A DNA stretch of 31,047 nt from a virus (IMGVR_UViG_3300044703_000142:1-31047), one strand, 5' to 3'; shown: positions 2,131 through 31,047, counted from the stretch's first letter. Numbers and translations are program-made. The notes: a model not told the origin generated them from the letters alone.

Positions 2131-3700
2131 AATCAAGGCGAGCCTAAGCGTCGATGACGCCGGCACCGTGACGGGCATCGCTTGGCCGTTCGGCACAGCC
2201 GATCGCGCGCGCGACCTGATCGAAAAAGGCGCATTCAGCAGCCCGGCGCGGCTGCCGATGCTATTCGCGCACGACCAGGCACAAGTGATTGGCGTATGGG
2301 ATTCGATCAGCGAAACCGAGGCCGGCCTGACTGTTAAAGGCCGCTTGCTGATCGATGACGTGGCGCGCGCCCGTGAAGTTCGGGCGCTTGTGCGGGAAGG
2401 CGCGGTTAGCGGCCTTTCGATCGGCTTTGTCACAAAGAAAGCCGCGCCGCGCCATGGCGGCGGGCGGACCATCACAGCCTTAGACCTACACGAGATCAGC
2501 ATCGTTCCCGTGCCGTCGCATCCCGGCGCACGGATCATTTCGGCCAAAAGTGCCGAGCAACCGGCCGGCATGGCCAATCAGAAGGAGTCCACTGTGGACA
2601 ATGAGAATACGGAAGCCGCGCCGGACTACGCGGCACTTGAACAGAAGATGGGCGAGCTTGCGGAGGCCGTGAGTGGCGTTCGCAAGATCACCGATCGGCT
2701 GGACAAGATCGAAGCACGTGTGAACCGCCAAGGCGTGACGCTGAAGGCGGATAACGACAACGGCGGGCTTGAAGCCAAGGCGTTCGTTTCGTTCTGCCGG
2801 CGCGGCATTGAACGCGTGAGCCCGGATGAAATCAAATCCCTCACCGTCGCCAATGACGCCACTGCTGGCTATCTGGCACCGGAAAGCTTCGCAAGCGAGC
2901 TGATCAAGCTGCTTCGCGAATACTCTCCGATCCGCGCCTATGCGCGCGTGATCAGCGTGGGCGCTTCTGAGGTCAAATACCCGCGGCGCATCGGCAGCAC
3001 CGTTGCGGCATGGGTTGACGAAACGGAAGACCGCACCGCAAGCGACCCGGCTTATGAGCAGGTCAGCATCAAGCCGTATGAGCTGGCGACGTTCACTGAC
3101 GTTTCGAATCAGCTTTTGGAAGACAACGCCTATAACCTCGAAGGCGAGCTGTCGGCTGACTTTGCGGAAACGTTTGGGAAGGCGGAAGGGACGGCTTTCG
3201 TTACCGGCAGCGGCACTGGCCGGCCCAAGGGCCTGCTGACCGCCTCCGGCATCTCGGAAGTCAAGACAGGCAATGCGTCAGCATTCCCGTCCAGCAACCC
3301 GGCGGACGTGATTATCGGCATGTTCCATGCGCTTCCGACTGCGCATGCGCAGCGCGGCGTGTGGCTTATGAACCGCAACACGCTGGCGACGGTGCGCAAG
3401 TGGAAGGACGGGCAAGGCCGTTATCTCGTTATTGATCCGATTTCGGAGGGCGCTGCGATCACTCTGCTGGGCCGGCCGATTGTCGAGGCAATCGACATGC
3501 CCGATATCGCGGCCAATGCTTACCCGATCCTGTTCGGCGACCTTCAAGGTTACCGCATCATTGATCGCGTGAGCCTGTCGGTTCTCCGTGATCCCTATAC
3601 GCTTGCGACCAAAGGGCAGGTCCGCTTTCACGCTCGCAAGCGCGTCGGTGCGGACGTGACGCACCCTGACCGGTTCGTGAAGCTGAAGGTCGCGGCGTAA
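2117..3700 (+). CDS. HK97 prohead protease-major capsid protein fusion
   Basis: A 527-aa fusion. Residues 1-150 are an HK97-type prohead protease (PF04586) with the catalytic set visible: His52 in 'LFAHDQ', Ser101 in 'GLSIGF' and Glu126 in 'LHEISIVPVP'. Residues 165-210 are charged and coiled-coil-like, matching a scaffolding delta domain. Residues 220-527 are an HK97-fold major capsid protein (PF05065), with 'GYLAPESFASELIKLLREYSPIRAYARV' as the N-terminal arm and a 'GRYLVIDP...LLGRPIVEAIDMP' core. Fused protease-capsid genes are known in this phage group; self-cleavage would release the mature capsid. It overlaps the gene before it. An internal ribosome-binding site and GTG at 2582-2596 could supply extra capsid protein. 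Confidence 0.95.
   Translation: MDKLEIKASLSVDDAGTVTGIAWPFGTADRARDLIEKGAFSSPARLPMLFAHDQAQVIGVWDSISETEAGLTVKGRLLIDDVARAREVRALVREGAVSGLSIGFVTKKAAPRHGGGRTITALDLHEISIVPVPSHPGARIISAKSAEQPAGMANQKESTVDNENTEAAPDYAALEQKMGELAEAVSGVRKITDRLDKIEARVNRQGVTLKADNDNGGLEAKAFVSFCRRGIERVSPDEIKSLTVANDATAGYLAPESFASELIKLLREYSPIRAYARVISVGASEVKYPRRIGSTVAAWVDETEDRTASDPAYEQVSIKPYELATFTDVSNQLLEDNAYNLEGELSADFAETFGKAEGTAFVTGSGTGRPKGLLTASGISEVKTGNASAFPSSNPADVIIGMFHALPTAHAQRGVWLMNRNTLATVRKWKDGQGRYLVIDPISEGAAITLLGRPIVEAIDMPDIAANAYPILFGDLQGYRIIDRVSLSVLRDPYTLATKGQVRFHARKRVGADVTHPDRFVKLKVAA
2582..2596 (+). promoter_or_regulatory. Internal ribosome-binding site and GTG start inside the protease-capsid fusion
   Basis: AAGGAG (2582-2587) is followed after 6 nt by an in-frame GTG (2594). 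This lies just at the junction between the protease domain and the delta/capsid part of the fusion. Initiation here would give a 368-aa delta-capsid protein without protease. An in-frame ATG at 2570 lies just before it. The spacing is better than that of the fusion's own start at 2117, which overlaps the preceding gene. Confidence 0.5.
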
Positions 3701-16052: not shown

Positions 16053-16142
16053 TGGCGGAGAGGGTGGGATTCGAACCCACGATACGGTTACCCGTATGCC
16101 GCATTTCGAGTGCGGTGCCTTCAACCACTCGACCACCTCTCC
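16053..16142 (-). tRNA. tRNA-Ser(CGA)
   Basis: Read on the minus strand, the gene begins GGAGAGGTGGTCGAGTGG and ends in CCTCTCC-G-CCA, so the acceptor stem is a perfect 7 bp and CCA is encoded. The anticodon arm is CCGCA-CTCGAAA-TGCGG, giving anticodon CGA. The T-arm GTGGGTTCGAATCCCAC is canonical, and the extra arm is long, as in serine tRNAs. At 90 nt it is complete. It separates the two phage-related modules and is a likely integration target, although the integrase gene lies on the side of its 5' end, which is unusual. Confidence 0.97.
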
Positions 16143-16211: not shown

Positions 16212-17378
16212 CTACCCAATGGCTTTTGTGGAGCGCTTCTGTACCGCCAGACGCAAGGCATCGTCAACGCGCGCGGCCGCATCCTCCTGCATGCCCGGAA
16301 GGACGTGGCTGTAGAGATCGAGCGTAATCCCGACGCGGGAATGTCCGAGCCGCTCTGAGGCGACCTTGGGATGGACGCCGCTGGCGAGCAGATGAGTGGC
16401 GTGCGCATGGCGCAAATCATGGAAGCGCGAGCGGGGCAGGGCGATACGGCTGCGCAGCATCTGCCATGCATGCGTCAGGCTGCGGGGCTGCATCGGCTCG
16501 CCATCCTCCCTCGCATATACGAAGGTGGCATCCGTCTGCCGCACACCGATGCGCAGCAACTCTTCCGCTTGTCGGAGGCGATGCGTGCGCAGCTCGTCGA
16601 CCACCGTTGCAGATAGCGCCACCATGCGACCGCGGCCCGACTTCGGGGCCTTGTATCGCACGCCTTCGGCGGTTTGTTCGGCGCTCTCGACAATCGAAGC
16701 CTTGCCGGCGACAAGATCCACGTTGCGCCAGCGCAGCGCGCAGATTTCGCCACGCCGTAAGCCGCACAGCACCCCGAGAAGCACCGGAATCAGCAGTCGG
16801 CTTTGCCGCACCGTGGCCAGTAATTCGACCGTCTGACCCATGTCGAACGTGCTCATGGTGCTGCGCTCCACCTTCGGAGGGTCAACTGCATCGGCAGGAT
16901 TGCGCACCAGCAACTCCCACCGCACCGCCTGGCGCAACGCGTGTTTGATAAGGCGATGCATGTAGACGACGGTGGTGGGCGCCAATCCGCCTTTGCCGTC
17001 ACGTCGGCCGTTCGCTAGCGCGTTCGCATAGGCTTCTGAAATCTGCGCCGGCTTCAGTTTTGGTAACAGCACTCCGCCGATCGCAGGGGCGATGTTTTTT
17101 CTCACGATCTCGCAATATCGTTCGTGGGTGCGGGGCGTCACATGGGCGCGCATGTGCTGCAGCCAACGTTCAAGGAAGGCCGCCACGGTGATTCTGTCGG
17201 GCTGCTGGTAAGCGCCGCCCTTCAATTCCGAGATCAGGCGGGCGCATTCGGTCTGCGCCTGTCGTTTGTTGCCTTCGAACGAATGCCAGCGGCGTTTGCG
17301 CTTGCCGGTGGCTGCGTCGCGGACGTCCAACACGATCGCCCAGCGGCCGGGGGATCGCTCTTTGATGTGGCCCTTCAT
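16212..17378 (-). CDS. int: Tyrosine recombinase / site-specific integrase
   Basis: A 388-aa phage integrase. Residues 1-55 form an arm-binding-like domain ('GRWAIVLDVRDAATGKRKRRWHSFEGNKRQAQ'). Residues 62-160 are the SAM-like core-binding domain. Residues about 175-370 are the catalytic domain with the full set Arg208 ('GLRRGE'), Lys246 ('APKSGRGR'), His320 and Arg323 ('RFHDLRHAHATHLL'), His346 ('LGHSRVGI') and nucleophile Tyr356 ('LDLYSHV'). Length and motifs are complete, so it should be active. Its ATG overlaps the stop of the upstream RHH gene (ATGA). It ends 70 bp from tRNA-Ser, which is probably its target. Confidence 0.96.
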   Translation of the reverse strand: MKGHIKERSPGRWAIVLDVRDAATGKRKRRWHSFEGNKRQAQTECARLISELKGGAYQQPDRITVAAFLERWLQHMRAHVTPRTHERYCEIVRKNIAPAIGGVLLPKLKPAQISEAYANALANGRRDGKGGLAPTTVVYMHRLIKHALRQAVRWELLVRNPADAVDPPKVERSTMSTFDMGQTVELLATVRQSRLLIPVLLGVLCGLRRGEICALRWRNVDLVAGKASIVESAEQTAEGVRYKAPKSGRGRMVALSATVVDELRTHRLRQAEELLRIGVRQTDATFVYAREDGEPMQPRSLTHAWQMLRSRIALPRSRFHDLRHAHATHLLASGVHPKVASERLGHSRVGITLDLYSHVLPGMQEDAAARVDDALRLAVQKRSTKAIG

Positions 17379-26973: not shown

Positions 26974-27002
26974 CCCCCACAAGGGGAATTTTCTATTAAC
27001 GC

Positions 27003-27256
27003 AAATCAGTGTATGGTGTCCGTGGGCTTGGAAACCCGGACTCAGGACGGCAGATCCCGGTTGGCACCGGAAGGTTGCCGATACGCGCCTATGAGCATTG
27101 GCGGGGCTCTATCGCGCAATGACGCACCTTGGCGGGTGCGCCGACCTGGCCAATATGGCCGGGAGCGGTGCGCCATGTCCAGAGCGAAAGCTTAAAAGCG
27201 CGCCGGCCTGTCTCTTGAGCAGGTTTCCAACCCCGGCTGCTGGTCCCTTACCGGCG
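27003..27256 (+). ncRNA. Structured RNA, copy 1 (TTGGCR-loop hairpin RNA)
   Basis: The region shares conserved blocks with 30632-30882, and its hairpins covary with that copy. Stems are GTCCG/CGGAC (27018-27041), CCGG-TTGGCA-CCGG (27057-27070), GAGC/GCTC with TTGGCG in the loop (27093-27109), CGCACC-TTGGCG-GGTGCG (27123-27140), CTGGCC-AATAT-GGCCGG (27146-27162), AGC-GAAA-GCT (27183-27192), CCTG/CAGG (27207-27223) and GCTGGT/ACCGGC (27239-27255). AAATCAG marks the left edge. No conserved long reading frame runs through it. It lies between two leftward genes, pointing rightward, so it is unlikely to be a leader of either. Family unknown; borders are approximate. Confidence 0.7.
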
Positions 27257-27412
27257 CTTGGCCTTCCGCGTTTCCAGCGGTTCGGCCGCGCATATGGCAG
27301 CTAACGTGACACGCCGACGCTGGGTAGCGTTGTGGGCTTATTCTTATTAGCAGACGTACTCGGTCTTGATGGTGCCCCGGCTGCCGGTTTCGGTTTGCGG
27401 ATCACTCGAATC

Positions 27413-28141
27413 TTAAGAAGGTCGAATATTTGTCATTCGTTGGAGGTAAATCCAATCCTGTGTGGTACGTCGAAACCAAAGGGCCATGGTTTGGCACCCT
27501 CGGTCTGGTATGAATACCTGGAGTTCGTTTTCCTCCTGCTCGGGGGCTACGACGGTCCCGAGGCACCCCCCGACCGTTAATCGCGCTTTGGTGACAAAGG
27601 AAGTTTCCTTCCCGCTTGGATATCTCTCGATCCATTTGTCGTTTGTTTGACGGAACCATTCCCGTTGTCCTGGCTCGATTTCCAACGGTGAGGTTTCGTA
27701 GCTAAATGAGTCGATTCTCGCATTATCCGAGTTCGGGGAGTTCACTTTCGAAGAGGAGGGTAAAGCGTCACTTGGCGTTGGCAAATTGGGTACACTTAAT
27801 CCCTTGTCTGCGGTGGTAACTTTCATGATTTCGGTTTTATATGTCGGTATGAGCCCCACCGTCGCATAAAACGTAAGTGTTTTAACGGCACTCGTTTGAT
27901 CGACGCTCTGGATCGCGCGGTTTATCAGCGCGGTCTCGAACTTGATCTTTTCCAGTTCTATTGCTGCTAAGCTCTTTCTGGCTTCCGTCTCGGCGGCAGT
28001 TCTGTTCGTAAAGTATCCAGTAATCAGGGAACCAACAACTCCCCCGACGACCGTCATTATGGCGACAACTATAGTCGCGGCAGGCGTGCTGACTAGTGAT
28101 CGATCGCCTTTCGGGGCCTTGGGGTTAGGTACCACCGACAT
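27413..28141 (-). CDS. Hypothetical membrane-anchored protein
   Basis: A 242-aa protein from ATG 28141, supported by AGGACGGGA directly upstream; the frame continues 14 codons further. One strong transmembrane helix lies at about 21-45 ('ATIVVAIMTVVGGVVGSLITGYF'), followed by a coiled-coil-like segment ('EARKSLAAIELEKIKFETALINRAIQSV'). A Pro/Ser linker follows at roughly 118-150. The C-terminal domain has paired cysteines ('VGGCLGTVV', 'DRGCQTMALWFRR') and could be an extracytoplasmic beta domain. It is separated by 69 nt from the lipoprotein gene upstream. Unknown family. Confidence 0.55.
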   Translation of the reverse strand: MSVVPNPKAPKGDRSLVSTPAATIVVAIMTVVGGVVGSLITGYFTNRTAAETEARKSLAAIELEKIKFETALINRAIQSVDQTSAVKTLTFYATVGLIPTYKTEIMKVTTADKGLSVPNLPTPSDALPSSSKVNSPNSDNARIDSFSYETSPLEIEPGQREWFRQTNDKWIERYPSGKETSFVTKARLTVGGCLGTVVAPEQEENELQVFIPDRGCQTMALWFRRTTQDWIYLQRMTNIRPS

Positions 28142-28210
28142 TCCCGTCCTTTGAGTTTCTGGACACAGGTTCGGAGCGCGCACAAAAAACCGGGGGACTT
28201 CCCTCTTTGT

Positions 28211-28882
28211 TTAGGGCTGCGGCGCCTGAATTACCTCAACTTCATGCCGGTCGGGGCCGACCATCAGCGCCAACATGTATTTCTTGGGAGCCCCTCTGTC
28301 GGTTTCAGCTGGCGGATCAAGGTGTACTTGGCCACCGTAACTCTCACCGGGCATCAGAGTGTGATCTTTGATTGTCAGCGCTTCAAGCGCAGCCATGTTT
28401 CGGTCGCCGGTAACGGCAGCGGTTTCGGCCATTGCGGCGTTCTGGTCTGAAGCACGGGCCTGGGCCCAGTAACGGTTTGGTGTGGTTGCGCTGTTGAGAC
28501 CCGAAGCGACCCCGACCAAAATTGCCCGACCGACTTGTGCACTTCGTTCCTGCTCAACAAGGTCGGCGTATGAATGAACGCGGATTCCGCGCGCCTCTCC
28601 GGTCGGCAGGACTTGCGCAGCTTGAATGTCAGCAGTTCTAAAGTTCAGCGGGACTTTGGACTTGTTTTCTATCGTCACCTGGAAAACAGGGCGATCTCCA
28701 GCTCCGACGATGCGGCGATTCGGTGTTACGGTTACAATCGAGGCCGGCCGCATTGAGACCAACTGAGCGTGACCGTCTCGCATAAGCGCCTGCTGTTGCG
28801 CACGGGGCTGGAACAGTACAGCTTCCTTTGACGCGCATCCCGTACAGATTACTCCAAGCAGTAAGAGCAATAAATGTCTCAC
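28211..28882 (-). CDS. Predicted lipoprotein, unknown function
   Basis: A 223-aa protein starting with GTG 28882, preceded by AGAGGGGGCGGC. It has a short lipoprotein signal ('RHLLLLLLGVICTGC', Cys16 as the likely lipidated residue). The domain after it has beta-strand character ('ASIVTVTPNRRIVGAGDRPVFQVTIENKSKVPLNF'), a helical middle ('ARASDQNAAMAETAAVTGDRNMAALEAL') and a final beta pair ('PKKYMLALMVGPDRHEVEVIQ'). It begins 12 nt downstream of the outer-membrane barrel gene, so the two are probably co-transcribed and act at the envelope. Confidence 0.65.
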   Translation of the reverse strand: MRHLLLLLLGVICTGCASKEAVLFQPRAQQQALMRDGHAQLVSMRPASIVTVTPNRRIVGAGDRPVFQVTIENKSKVPLNFRTADIQAAQVLPTGEARGIRVHSYADLVEQERSAQVGRAILVGVASGLNSATTPNRYWAQARASDQNAAMAETAAVTGDRNMAALEALTIKDHTLMPGESYGGQVHLDPPAETDRGAPKKYMLALMVGPDRHEVEVIQAPQP

Positions 28883-28894
28883 TTGCCGCCCCCT

Positions 28895-29599
28895 CTAGTA
28901 TCCGGCGCTAAGCGGGCCAAAATTGAGCCTATAATTCACGCCAAATCTAACGATGTTGTTTGTCGCGTAATCCTTGCCTGTGATCCCGAATCCTAAATTA
29001 TACTCTTTGATCTGTGACTGCAGATAGAGGTACTCAGCTTTGGCGGTCCAGCCCCCGATCAGGGCGGCTTCTACGCCAGCCCCGACGGTCCATAGCGGCC
29101 GAATTTCCGAACTAGTCCTGGAGCCAATCTCCGTGCGGTATTCTCCCTGGCCACCGCCGGCCGTGCCGTAGATTAGGAACCGGTCCAAGGCCGCACCAAC
29201 CCGGAGGCGGCCAGTCCAGAACCATGGAAGGCTGTTTGTTAGACTGGAACCAAATACCTGGTATTTTTGCTGCTGGCCGGTGACTTGCACGTCAGATTCC
29301 AGGCCAAAGACAAAAGTTCCAGTTTGGAAATTAGTGCCACCTTGGAAGCCGACCAAAGGACCCGGTAGATGTTCGGTTGACGTGGCGCTAAAGGGCCCCA
29401 CCGCTACTCTGGCGACCGTTTCTCCTTGGCCATATCCAGCATTCAATCCCAGATATGAACCGGCCCAACTGTAATACGCCGGTGCGGGAGGCGGATACAC
29501 TATCGGCGGCGGTTCGGGATAAGGTGCTGCGGGCTGATCAGCAGCAAATACTGCAGAACTGAGCAAAGCGCCTGTAAAGCTCGCGAGCAGCGATTTCAT
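28895..29599 (-). CDS. Omp25/31-like outer-membrane beta-barrel protein
   Basis: A 234-aa protein with a signal peptide ('MKSLLASFTGALLSSAVFAADQ', cleavage after Ala), a Pro/Tyr-rich linker, then an eight-strand-type barrel (OMP_b-brl, PF13505). The characteristic opening 'YSWAGSYLGLNAGYGQGE' is followed by alternating strands such as 'TFVFGLESDVQVTGQ', 'LIYGTAGGGQGEYRT', 'GGWTAKAEYLYLQ' and the closing 'NNIVRFGVNYRLNFG'. This family is abundant in Hyphomicrobiales. GGGGGAGG lies 4 nt before the ATG. An envelope protein carried beside phage genes could influence phage adsorption, but there is no direct evidence for that. Confidence 0.9.
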   Translation of the reverse strand: MKSLLASFTGALLSSAVFAADQPAAPYPEPPPIVYPPPAPAYYSWAGSYLGLNAGYGQGETVARVAVGPFSATSTEHLPGPLVGFQGGTNFQTGTFVFGLESDVQVTGQQQKYQVFGSSLTNSLPWFWTGRLRVGAALDRFLIYGTAGGGQGEYRTEIGSRTSSEIRPLWTVGAGVEAALIGGWTAKAEYLYLQSQIKEYNLGFGITGKDYATNNIVRFGVNYRLNFGPLSAGY

Positions 29600-29846
29600 T
29601 TAGCCTCCCCCGTAAAAGCTAGCTGGTTGCTTCCGCAACTCTTGATTGGGGTACTTACGAGCCGGACTGTGGCGAATATGGGACGTGTCAATAGAAAATT
29701 AACAAGTCGTTCGATGGGGCGCGCGGCATCCCGCCGATCTTCGTCCTCACCATCCCGGGTGGCCAACTCACTCGGATCAAGGAGGGCTGGCGCGCCGGAG
29801 GGGCACCGTGCCCTGATGCTATTGTTCCTGGCGGGGTGGATGGGCG
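29600..29846. other. Intergenic region, mostly featureless
   Basis: It contains the upstream region of the barrel gene. TTGACA occurs on the minus strand at about 29684-29689, but no good -10 follows at normal spacing. An 86-codon plus-strand frame over 29627-29887 has no plausible protein features. I see no repeat or terminator. Confidence 0.5.
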
Positions 29847-30563
29847 TTAGTTGCGGTGGCTGCTGCGGGCAGACTTCCTTCCTTTAGGCTGAGCCTGACA
29901 AAGCCGATCAAATTCGGTGATGACGTGCTCAGGTCCGCGTTTCCACTTCAAGATAGCAAAGCCGTCTTTTCGCACAGCCAACCGACCCTCCAGGGCGGCA
30001 ATTGCTTTGAGAATGTAATCTATTCTCGGATTGCATTGGTCTTTTTTCAGCGTCCTATAATAAGTCTTTGTGCCCGCGATTTCGTCTAGATCGACCATAG
30101 ACCATGCGCGGGTAGCTGCATTGTGTCTAATTAGATCAAGGACCAGATTACCCACGGGTTTGATTCTCAACCGCGGATGCAAAAGGCCAAGGCTGCGCCC
30201 CTTTTTGTAGATTGCTACCCAGGAAACACCGGGAAATTCTTTCATTAGGACGCTAATTTCTCCGGTCGAGAACTGCTTACGTAACGTGCTTACGTCGTTC
30301 GGCGTCCACCTGTGATATTTGGTGGCAACGCCAAGCGCCCGTGCCCGCATACAAATGGCACCAAGCGTTCGGTTTTGCAAAAGGCGACGAAGCTTCACGT
30401 AGTCTGGATAGATTGAACGTATTAGCTTATCTTCTTTCGGCGTCCAAATGGGCCAGCCGCTAAATGTCCGGCCGTTGAGGCGAATGCGGGCGCGGCAGTA
30501 TTCAGCAAGCGCCGCATTCCGATAAAGAAAACGTGCGGCACCCCTGCTTTTTCTCGTCCCCAT
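29847..30563 (-). CDS. SANT/Myb-like DNA-binding protein, unknown role
   Basis: A 238-aa basic protein with two tandem Myb/SANT-like helix-turn-helix repeats. The first, at about 40-80, reads 'WTPKEDKLIRSIYPDYVKLRRLLQNRTLGAICMRARALG'. The second, at about 86-127, reads 'WTPNDVSTLRKQFSTGEISVLMKEFPGVSWVAIYKKGRSLG'. A third helical segment follows ('SMVDLDEIAGTKTYYRTLKKDQCNPRIDYILKAIAALEG'), reading like an HTH. Such modules are frequent in phage and mobile-element proteins that recognise DNA, sometimes fused to HNH nucleases, but no nuclease motif is visible. It starts 69 bp from structured RNA copy 2 and is transcribed away from it. Confidence 0.65.
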   Translation of the reverse strand: MGTRKSRGAARFLYRNAALAEYCRARIRLNGRTFSGWPIWTPKEDKLIRSIYPDYVKLRRLLQNRTLGAICMRARALGVATKYHRWTPNDVSTLRKQFSTGEISVLMKEFPGVSWVAIYKKGRSLGLLHPRLRIKPVGNLVLDLIRHNAATRAWSMVDLDEIAGTKTYYRTLKKDQCNPRIDYILKAIAALEGRLAVRKDGFAILKWKRGPEHVITEFDRLCQAQPKGRKSARSSHRN

Positions 30564-30631
30564 GCGTCGAAATTTAGCCCCGGATTGAGGCGCGCGAAAG
30601 CGCCCCGAATAGGGTTGTTGATTTTTTAACC

Positions 30632-30882
30632 AAATCAGCGGAACGTGTCCGTGGGCCTGAAAACCCGGACCTGAGCTATAGCCGCGCCATTCCTGGTCAG
30701 AATGCCCGCTCGATTGGCGTCGAGAGGGAAGCGGCTGAACGTAGGTAGCGCATTGGCGTGCGCTCCGACCTGGCCATTATGGCCGGGAGGGCCGCGCCAT
30801 GTCCAGAGCCTTCGGGCTTAAAAGCGCTGCCGCCAGTCGCTCAGGCTGGTTTTCAGCTCCCGGCTGCCGGTCCGTCACCGGC
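30632..30882 (+). ncRNA. Structured RNA, copy 2 (TTGGCR-loop hairpin RNA)
   Basis: The stems are GTCCG/CGGAC (30647-30670), CATTC-CTGGTCA-GAATG (30688-30704), CTCGA-TTGGCG-TCGAG (30709-30724), GCGCA-TTGGCG-TGCGC (30748-30763), CTGGCC-ATTAT-GGCCGG (30770-30786), AGCC-TTCG-GGCT (30807-30818), CCAG/CTGG (30833-30849) and GCCGGT-CCGTC-ACCGGC (30866-30882). AGCCGC/GCGGCT (30680-30685 and 30731-30736) can enclose two of them. Several differ from copy 1 by paired changes. Copy 2 ends 34 nt before ATG 30917, so it may be a 5' leader of that gene or an independent RNA. Ligand and partner are unknown. Confidence 0.7.
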
Positions 30883-30916
30883 AACGGCTCTGAAAAGCCT
30901 AAACTGAGCAAGCCCA

Positions 30917-31047
30917 ATGACCCAACTCAATCCTATGTTCCCCGCCGATCCGGCGCATGCCCCTTCTTTGCCACCAGGAGCCCCGCCCATGCGGCCGGCT
31001 TCCGAGATAGCCAAGGATCCGTTTTTCGATCCGGAGACGTTCCCTGA
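30917..31047 (+). CDS. Start of an unknown gene truncated by the window end
   Basis: An open frame from ATG 30917 to the last bases (43 codons) reads 'MTQLNPMFPADPAHAPSLPP' and then 'GAPPMRPASEIAKDPFFDPE', with the Pro-rich composition of a real N-terminus. No strong ribosome-binding site is visible (CTGAGCAAGCCCA). The gene lies 34 nt downstream of structured RNA copy 2. The overlapping longer frame from 30799 in another phase reads through the RNA and is not credible. The product cannot be named from this fragment. Confidence 0.5.
   Translation, partial: MTQLNPMFPADPAHAPSLPPGAPPMRPASEIAKDPFFDPETFP

Follow-up and report, generated by a model that had tools for sequence, protein, structure and literature searches.

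A structured RNA occurring in two copies in a phage genome and in many Alphaproteobacteria is probably a C4-type antisense unit

The sequence analyzed here (the window), a virus record from IMG/VR with a length of 31,047 bases, encodes a phage portal, capsid and terminase, together with an integrase. Two copies of one RNA are located on the plus strand, at about 26996-27260 (copy 1) and 30625-30915 (copy 2). The two copies of a structured RNA reported in the earlier note are both present, as in-register direct repeats D1-D4 that cover 26974-27255 and 30603-30882 in a single register (spacing 3624-3629) and are 72-88% alike between the copies. The number of copies stands, but their equivalence does not: copy 2 is a complete unit, comprising an upstream complementary module (a1b1), a core, a downstream complementary module (a2b2) and an ORF at 30917, whereas copy 1, in the downstream complementarity test, lacks a2b2 and is not followed by a gene on the plus strand. 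Copy 1 may thus be a unit that was truncated or an antisense RNA that stands alone and has some other target, the 3' target module having been either lost or never present. The originally proposed ends need to be extended, the functional unit of copy 2 continuing to the ATG at 30917. In 200 of 200 comparisons with dinucleotide shuffles, the native sequence of either copy had the better fold (z of -3.0 and -4.1 for copies 1 and 2, respectively). Elsewhere in the window, a tRNA-Ser (CGA) gene (16053-16142) adjoins the integrase gene (16212-17378) on the same strand, which suggests a tRNA attachment site.

Copy 1 begins with hairpin H1 and module a1b1 (27003-27047, plus strand, as for all features below unless indicated otherwise). 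Segment a1 (TTGGAAA) is the loop of this first hairpin and b1 (CTCAGGA) comes next; they are complementary to segments a' (TTTCCAA) and b' (TCTTGAG) of the core, respectively, with two G-U pairs in the b1-b' pairing. The spacer that follows (27048-27156), recognized by its sequence and hexaloop counts, contains hairpins with UUGGCG or UUGGCA hexaloops and the stems CCGG/CCGG, GAGC/GCTC and CGCACC/GGTGCG, along with the hairpin CCTGGCC-AATAT-GGCCGGG, the 3' arm of which doubles as the 5' arm of the core. The predicted antisense core (27157-27237), delineated by structure counts, folding and a score of 87.6 bits with R1, our covariance model of the core (84 positions), consists of the closing helix P1, the internal-loop stem P2, the hairpin P3 carrying b', and the single-stranded a'. 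A post-core hairpin, GCTGGT/ACCGGC (27238-27258), lies within repeat D4.

Copy 2 is preceded by a possible promoter (30605-30648; TTGATT and GAACGT separated by 17 nt), suggested by aligned upstream sequences: a block like TTTTAACCAAATCAG at this site recurs upstream of many relatives. A consensus promoter scan called no plus-strand promoter at copy 2. Hairpin H1 and a1b1 (30644-30676; a1 CTGAAAA, b1 CCTGAGC) are complementary to a' (TTTTCAG) and b' (GCTCAGG), and the spacer (30677-30780) contains the UUGGCG-loop hairpins CTCGA/TCGAG and AGCGCA/TGCGCT and the hairpin CCTGGCC-ATTAT-GGCCGGG. The core (30781-30864; 93.2 bits with R1), with b' in the P3 loop (TCGCTCAGG), is followed by the post-core hairpin TGCCGGT/ACCGGCA (30865-30883), a type that is present in 40 of the 40 tail-bearing relatives, with 31 distinct arm pairs. 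The tail (30884-30911) contains the putative target module a2b2 (a2 CTGAAAA, b2 CTGAGC), identified by complementarity and by the distance from b2 to the ATG, and overlaps the ribosome-binding region. The ORF behind it (MTQLNPMFPADPAHAPSLPPGAPPMRPASEIAKDPFFDPETFP..., 30917-31047) runs off the window and is the presumed regulated gene; similar N-termini are encoded downstream of the RNA in several relatives (for example, MTIERPMFPP and MTQSRPMFPP).

A 16-mer from the RNA was found in 34 IMG/VR records, and alignment showed 15 of them to be true relatives; because this 16-mer was the search seed, its conservation results in part from selection of the sequences. A second sequence pattern yielded further relatives, and a pattern scan of genomes detected 28 loci, all in Alphaproteobacteria. 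The R1 model matches 36 of 385 genomes (the class of a Bradyrhizobium genome), often with several copies each and up to about 11 matches in a single 2.3-Mb genome. Similar DNA in named phages amounted to chance matches only. Altogether, the search for further homologues, proposed earlier as a check, recovered 91 relatives in which the listed stems covary.

Four parts make up the core, which is about 84 nt long: the closing helix (GCCGGGxx/xxCCCGGC); a stem interrupted by a conserved internal loop (CCATGTCCAG / TTAAAA) and ending in a small capping hairpin; the hairpin with loop b'; and the single-stranded a'. Among 90 distinct cores, 98.0% of the core cells are paired, compared with 70.1% after shuffling; 511 cells, against 135 after shuffling, have changed on both sides, and such changes affect 22 of the 24 core pairs. 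The covariation score is 0.707 compared with 0.194 for shuffled alignments and at most 0.112 for slid ones; although the alignment was fitted to the tested structure and such scores are inflated by related sequences, the distance to the controls is very large. When each core was folded alone (minimum energy), the helix joining its 5' and 3' ends closed in 91 of 91 cases. The structured RNA is real, and the selected, covarying structure postulated in the earlier note is strongly supported. Each of the matched changes listed there falls in a genuine stem: CGCACC/GGTGCG to GCGCA/TGCGC in a stem closing a UUGGCG loop, AGC-GAAA-GCT to AGCC-TTCG-GGCT in P2b, CCTG/CAGG to CCAG/CTGG in P3, and GCTGGT/ACCGGC to GCCGGT/ACCGGC in the hairpin after the core. 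In the spacer hairpin CCTGGCC-A(A/T)TAT-GGCCGGG (27143-27163 and 30767-30787), the 3' arm is also used by the closing helix of the core, which makes the two folds mutually exclusive; a comparable alternative was seen by eye in distant relatives.

The complementary modules were assessed with a fixed-spacing test, which replaced an initial, only moderately selective one that accepted sites anywhere upstream. The upstream module a1b1 is present in 83 of the 91 elements, compared with 1.3% when the loops are swapped for those of other elements, and the downstream module a2b2 in 48 of the 91, compared with 1.1%; in the same test, 43 relatives, including copy 1, lack a2b2. Among tail-bearing members, the end of b2 is 6-8 nt from the ATG in 35 of 40, a position that points to the next gene as the target; the ATG usually lies 52-59 nt past the core. 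The mean loop-target energy is -20.4 kcal/mol for cognate pairs versus -10.6 kcal/mol for non-cognate ones. In the window, the copy 2 loops pair with their own two modules at -19.7 and -17.1 kcal/mol, and the copy 1 loops with their own module at -19.3 kcal/mol but with the copy 2 modules at only -6.8 and -4.1 kcal/mol; separation in the reverse direction is weaker, at -12.4 kcal/mol for the copy 2 loops on the copy 1 module.

The hairpins with UUGGCG hexaloops (two to three per unit, for instance, at 27060-27140 and 30700-30765) go along with the tail. Two or more of them occupy the spacer between a1b1 and the core in 36 of the 40 tail-bearing relatives (shuffled expectation, 0.006 per element), and they are rare in relatives without a tail. 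These hexaloops are possibly a protein site. Kissing between them and the invariant CGCCA was rejected because the loops remain UUGGCG where the site is CGCTA (L043, L044), and a leader peptide starting from the ATG in GCGCCATGTCC was dismissed as well, its reading frame being unconserved. A separate segment of the window on the minus strand (29927-29945, TGGAAACGCGGACCTGAGC), inside the ORF at 29847-30563, matches a1b1 of copy 2 at 17 of 19 positions, so the mRNA of this gene, which is divergent and encodes a D5-like regulator, could be a further pairing partner of the copy 2 loops; the resemblance may be due to chance, by our own rough estimate about 0.02.

In searches against Rfam 15, neither copy matched any family at the gathering score, a tRNA elsewhere being the sole match in the window, and the loci of 10 relatives gave no match. 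In this respect, the earlier description of the RNA as unrecognised holds; nevertheless, its layout is that of C4 antisense RNA, and matches to sRNA-Xcc1 and C4 occur below threshold. The best such match of copy 2 is sRNA-Xcc1 (RF02221; 23.9 bits against a threshold of 53, E of 0.077, 30781-30873); sRNA-Xcc1 is not among the Rfam matches of copy 1, and C4 (RF01695, threshold 45 bits) has no match at E<=10 in either copy. Distant members reach, still below threshold, 23-26 bits with the C4 model and 25.7-32.8 bits with the sRNA-Xcc1 model, and both models align to them with corresponding helices. These matches first surfaced in a C4 search of ten genomes, on R1 positions in one of these (G176). 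R1 itself picks up genuine sRNA-Xcc1 loci, with best E-values of 8e-5 to 2e-3 (roughly calibrated). One above-threshold sRNA-Xcc1 (L142) has the same tail arrangement before its gene, the product of which is homologous to the protein encoded behind a window-type RNA (L073; 47% identity, E of 2e-28).

C4 is an antisense RNA of about 77 nt that is processed by RNase P and represses translation in trans. The C4 RNAs of phages P1 and P7 belong to RF01695, and the motif c4-a1b1 was listed by Weinberg 2010. C4 contains three stem-loops and is cut by RNase P at the 5' end of P1; ribosome-binding sites are partly occluded by b', a' confers specificity from an upstream site, and a 4-nt difference in loop and target between P1 and P7 restricts cross-action (PMC5320573). 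Compared through the RF01695 model and this description, the window-type RNA shares with C4 the closing helix, two inner stems, the b' loop and the a' strand, variable specificity loops, a phage context, the upstream module (83 of the 91 elements) and, in copy 2 and 48 of the 91 relatives but not in copy 1, a complementary module at the ribosome-binding site of the next gene; in addition, the 5' end of the core is often (U)UAUGG-like, being partly conserved. It differs from C4 in its long P2 with the conserved internal loop CCAUGUCCAG/UUAAAA, in the UUGGCG-loop hairpins between a1b1 and the core, and in the regulated gene, which is not icd/ant.

The other known relative in architecture, sRNA-Xcc1, is 88 nt long by RACE in Xanthomonas campestris (PMC2996969) and, in integron cassettes of Xanthomonas, precedes symE (PMC12444791). 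It resembles the window type in core layout and length and in the internal-loop stem; several sRNA-Xcc1 loci carry an upstream complementary module, and two (L145, L142) have a tail before the ATG. The sRNA-Xcc1 internal loop (AAUACAAuAC.../GGAAu) is unlike that of the window type, and in some sRNA-Xcc1 loci a1b1 is separated from the core by a stem and T-run. The CI RNA of P4 immunity (seqA/seqB/seqC) also contains an antisense segment complementary to leader sites both upstream and downstream; it acts through premature transcription termination. The likeness of one segment matching sites on both sides in its own leader concerns this general description of CI RNA. A group I or group II intron or a self-cleaving RNA was rejected, as Rfam yielded no match to these.

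The sub-threshold matches to C4 and sRNA-Xcc1, combined with the C4-type arrangement of a1b1, core and a2b2 at the ribosome-binding site, indicate that the RNA is a variant of this known kind. We file it, on sequence grounds and below the membership thresholds of both families, as a putative, so far uncatalogued alphaproteobacterial branch of C4/sRNA-Xcc1-type antisense RNA; within Rfam and a limited literature search, we found no paper describing such a branch. The reading that we favor, at a probability of roughly 80%, is that the RNA is a C4-type antisense unit belonging to phages and other mobile elements of Alphaproteobacteria, and that its core is released and represses the next gene. 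The match of the loops to the upstream sequences and, in copy 2, to the ribosome-binding site of the next gene suggests that the RNA switches this gene off. From the observed structure and covariation, the modules and their position before the ATG, and the C4/Xcc1-like layout of the core, we infer transcription, processing and repression along the following lines. A leader transcript would start at H1 and run through a1b1 and the core of about 84 nt and, in copy 2, through the hairpin and a2b2. The core would probably be excised from it, as RNase P does for C4 RNA. Pairing of b' and a' with b2 and a2 would then block ribosome access, so that the next gene would be off while the core is abundant; in the uncut transcript, a1b1 would compete for, or mask, b' and a'.

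Both copies in the window falling below the thresholds of both Rfam families weighs against this reading, as does the absence of the downstream module from 43 of the 91 relatives, including copy 1. Members lacking it (copy 1, three Mesorhizobium loci, L046, L048 and L062, and many in small genomes), some of which are followed by a stem and a T-run, would suit a stand-alone small RNA directed against mRNAs of the host or of rival phages, with the adjacent complementary modules merely protecting or titrating it. We consider this explanation improbable given the 48 of 91 elements with a tail, in which b2 normally precedes the ATG by 6-8 nt, implicating the adjacent gene as the target.

The genes behind the units bear on the remaining alternatives. 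The genes behind tail-bearing units encode small proteins without a known function, and the downstream proteins have no function in common; tail-less units precede varied cargo, including antirepressor/Rha-like regulators, nucleases, methyltransferases and membrane proteins. A short Ant-like query had no match in the phage collection and is uninformative. Such variety suits a regulator that moves with phage cargo and gives no single physiological role. Copies within a genome have cores that are 90-100% identical outside the loops, whereas their b' loops, in many copies, agree at only 30-70%. Two units of one Sphingomonas genome (L081 and L085) are alike over most of their length except for a, b, a' and b', with complementarity kept; some paralogues share one loop, with the same b' and a different a' in one genome (G002) and the same a' and a different b' in another (G005). 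Near-identical cores with rewritten b' and a' suggest insulated specificities.

Slightly less probable still than a stand-alone RNA is a cis-acting, riboswitch-like strand-exchange switch, in which the 5' module and the tail would compete for the same loops within one transcript and a ligand or protein bound to the core would set access to the ribosome-binding site, with nothing acting in trans. Indeed, the same loops find a complement in both modules, conservation is high at the internal-loop bases CCATGTCCAGAG / CTTAAAA, the CCTGGCC/GGCCGGG hairpin excludes the closing helix such that two folds are possible, and the covariation expected of a switch acting purely in cis is much like that of a C4-type unit. 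Yet a ligand switch does not need the rewriting of b' and a' among same-genome paralogues with near-identical cores, the downstream genes are very varied, and the layout fits that of C4, an antisense RNA known to act in trans. A catalytic or mobile RNA, such as a small intron-like element or transposon guide RNA with the loops guiding insertion, would account for guide-like loops that covary with flanking 'targets', many copies per genome and the phage association, but is most improbable, considering that no Rfam intron or transposon RNA family matches, that a promoter-like sequence is found by eye directly upstream of H1 in most relatives, and that the core has the C4/sRNA-Xcc1 architecture.

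Under the C4-type reading, the loop diversification resembles, by analogy, the P1/P7 case. We tentatively propose, at somewhat less than even odds, that such RNAs form, in Alphaproteobacteria, a large family of mutually orthogonal antisense switches, in which the specificity of pairing would be driven to diversify against cross-regulation of coexisting copies or of resident and incoming phages, amounting to RNA-coded incompatibility or superinfection immunity across phage and cargo genes. Given that the downstream proteins have no known function, an immunity role is hypothetical. To a family in which C4 and sRNA-Xcc1 are the other representatives, the relatives contribute an alphaproteobacterial branch that is widespread and multi-copy. 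They also align C4 and sRNA-Xcc1 as a single architecture, flanked on either side by target modules. Same-genome paralogues with near-identical cores and rewritten guide loops constitute naturally occurring candidates for orthogonal antisense pairs and allow direct tests of specificity, cross-talk and phage immunity.

Two further loci deserve mention. Megaplasmids of Bradyrhizobium barranii carry a 78-nt piece (L040, 3001-3078) that resembles the 5' part of the unit and is apparently a remnant; R1 does not recognize it as a core. A Methylobacterium soli genome (G004) encodes both the window-type RNA and a true C4 antisense RNA (L121, 1501-1584, 55.9 bits).
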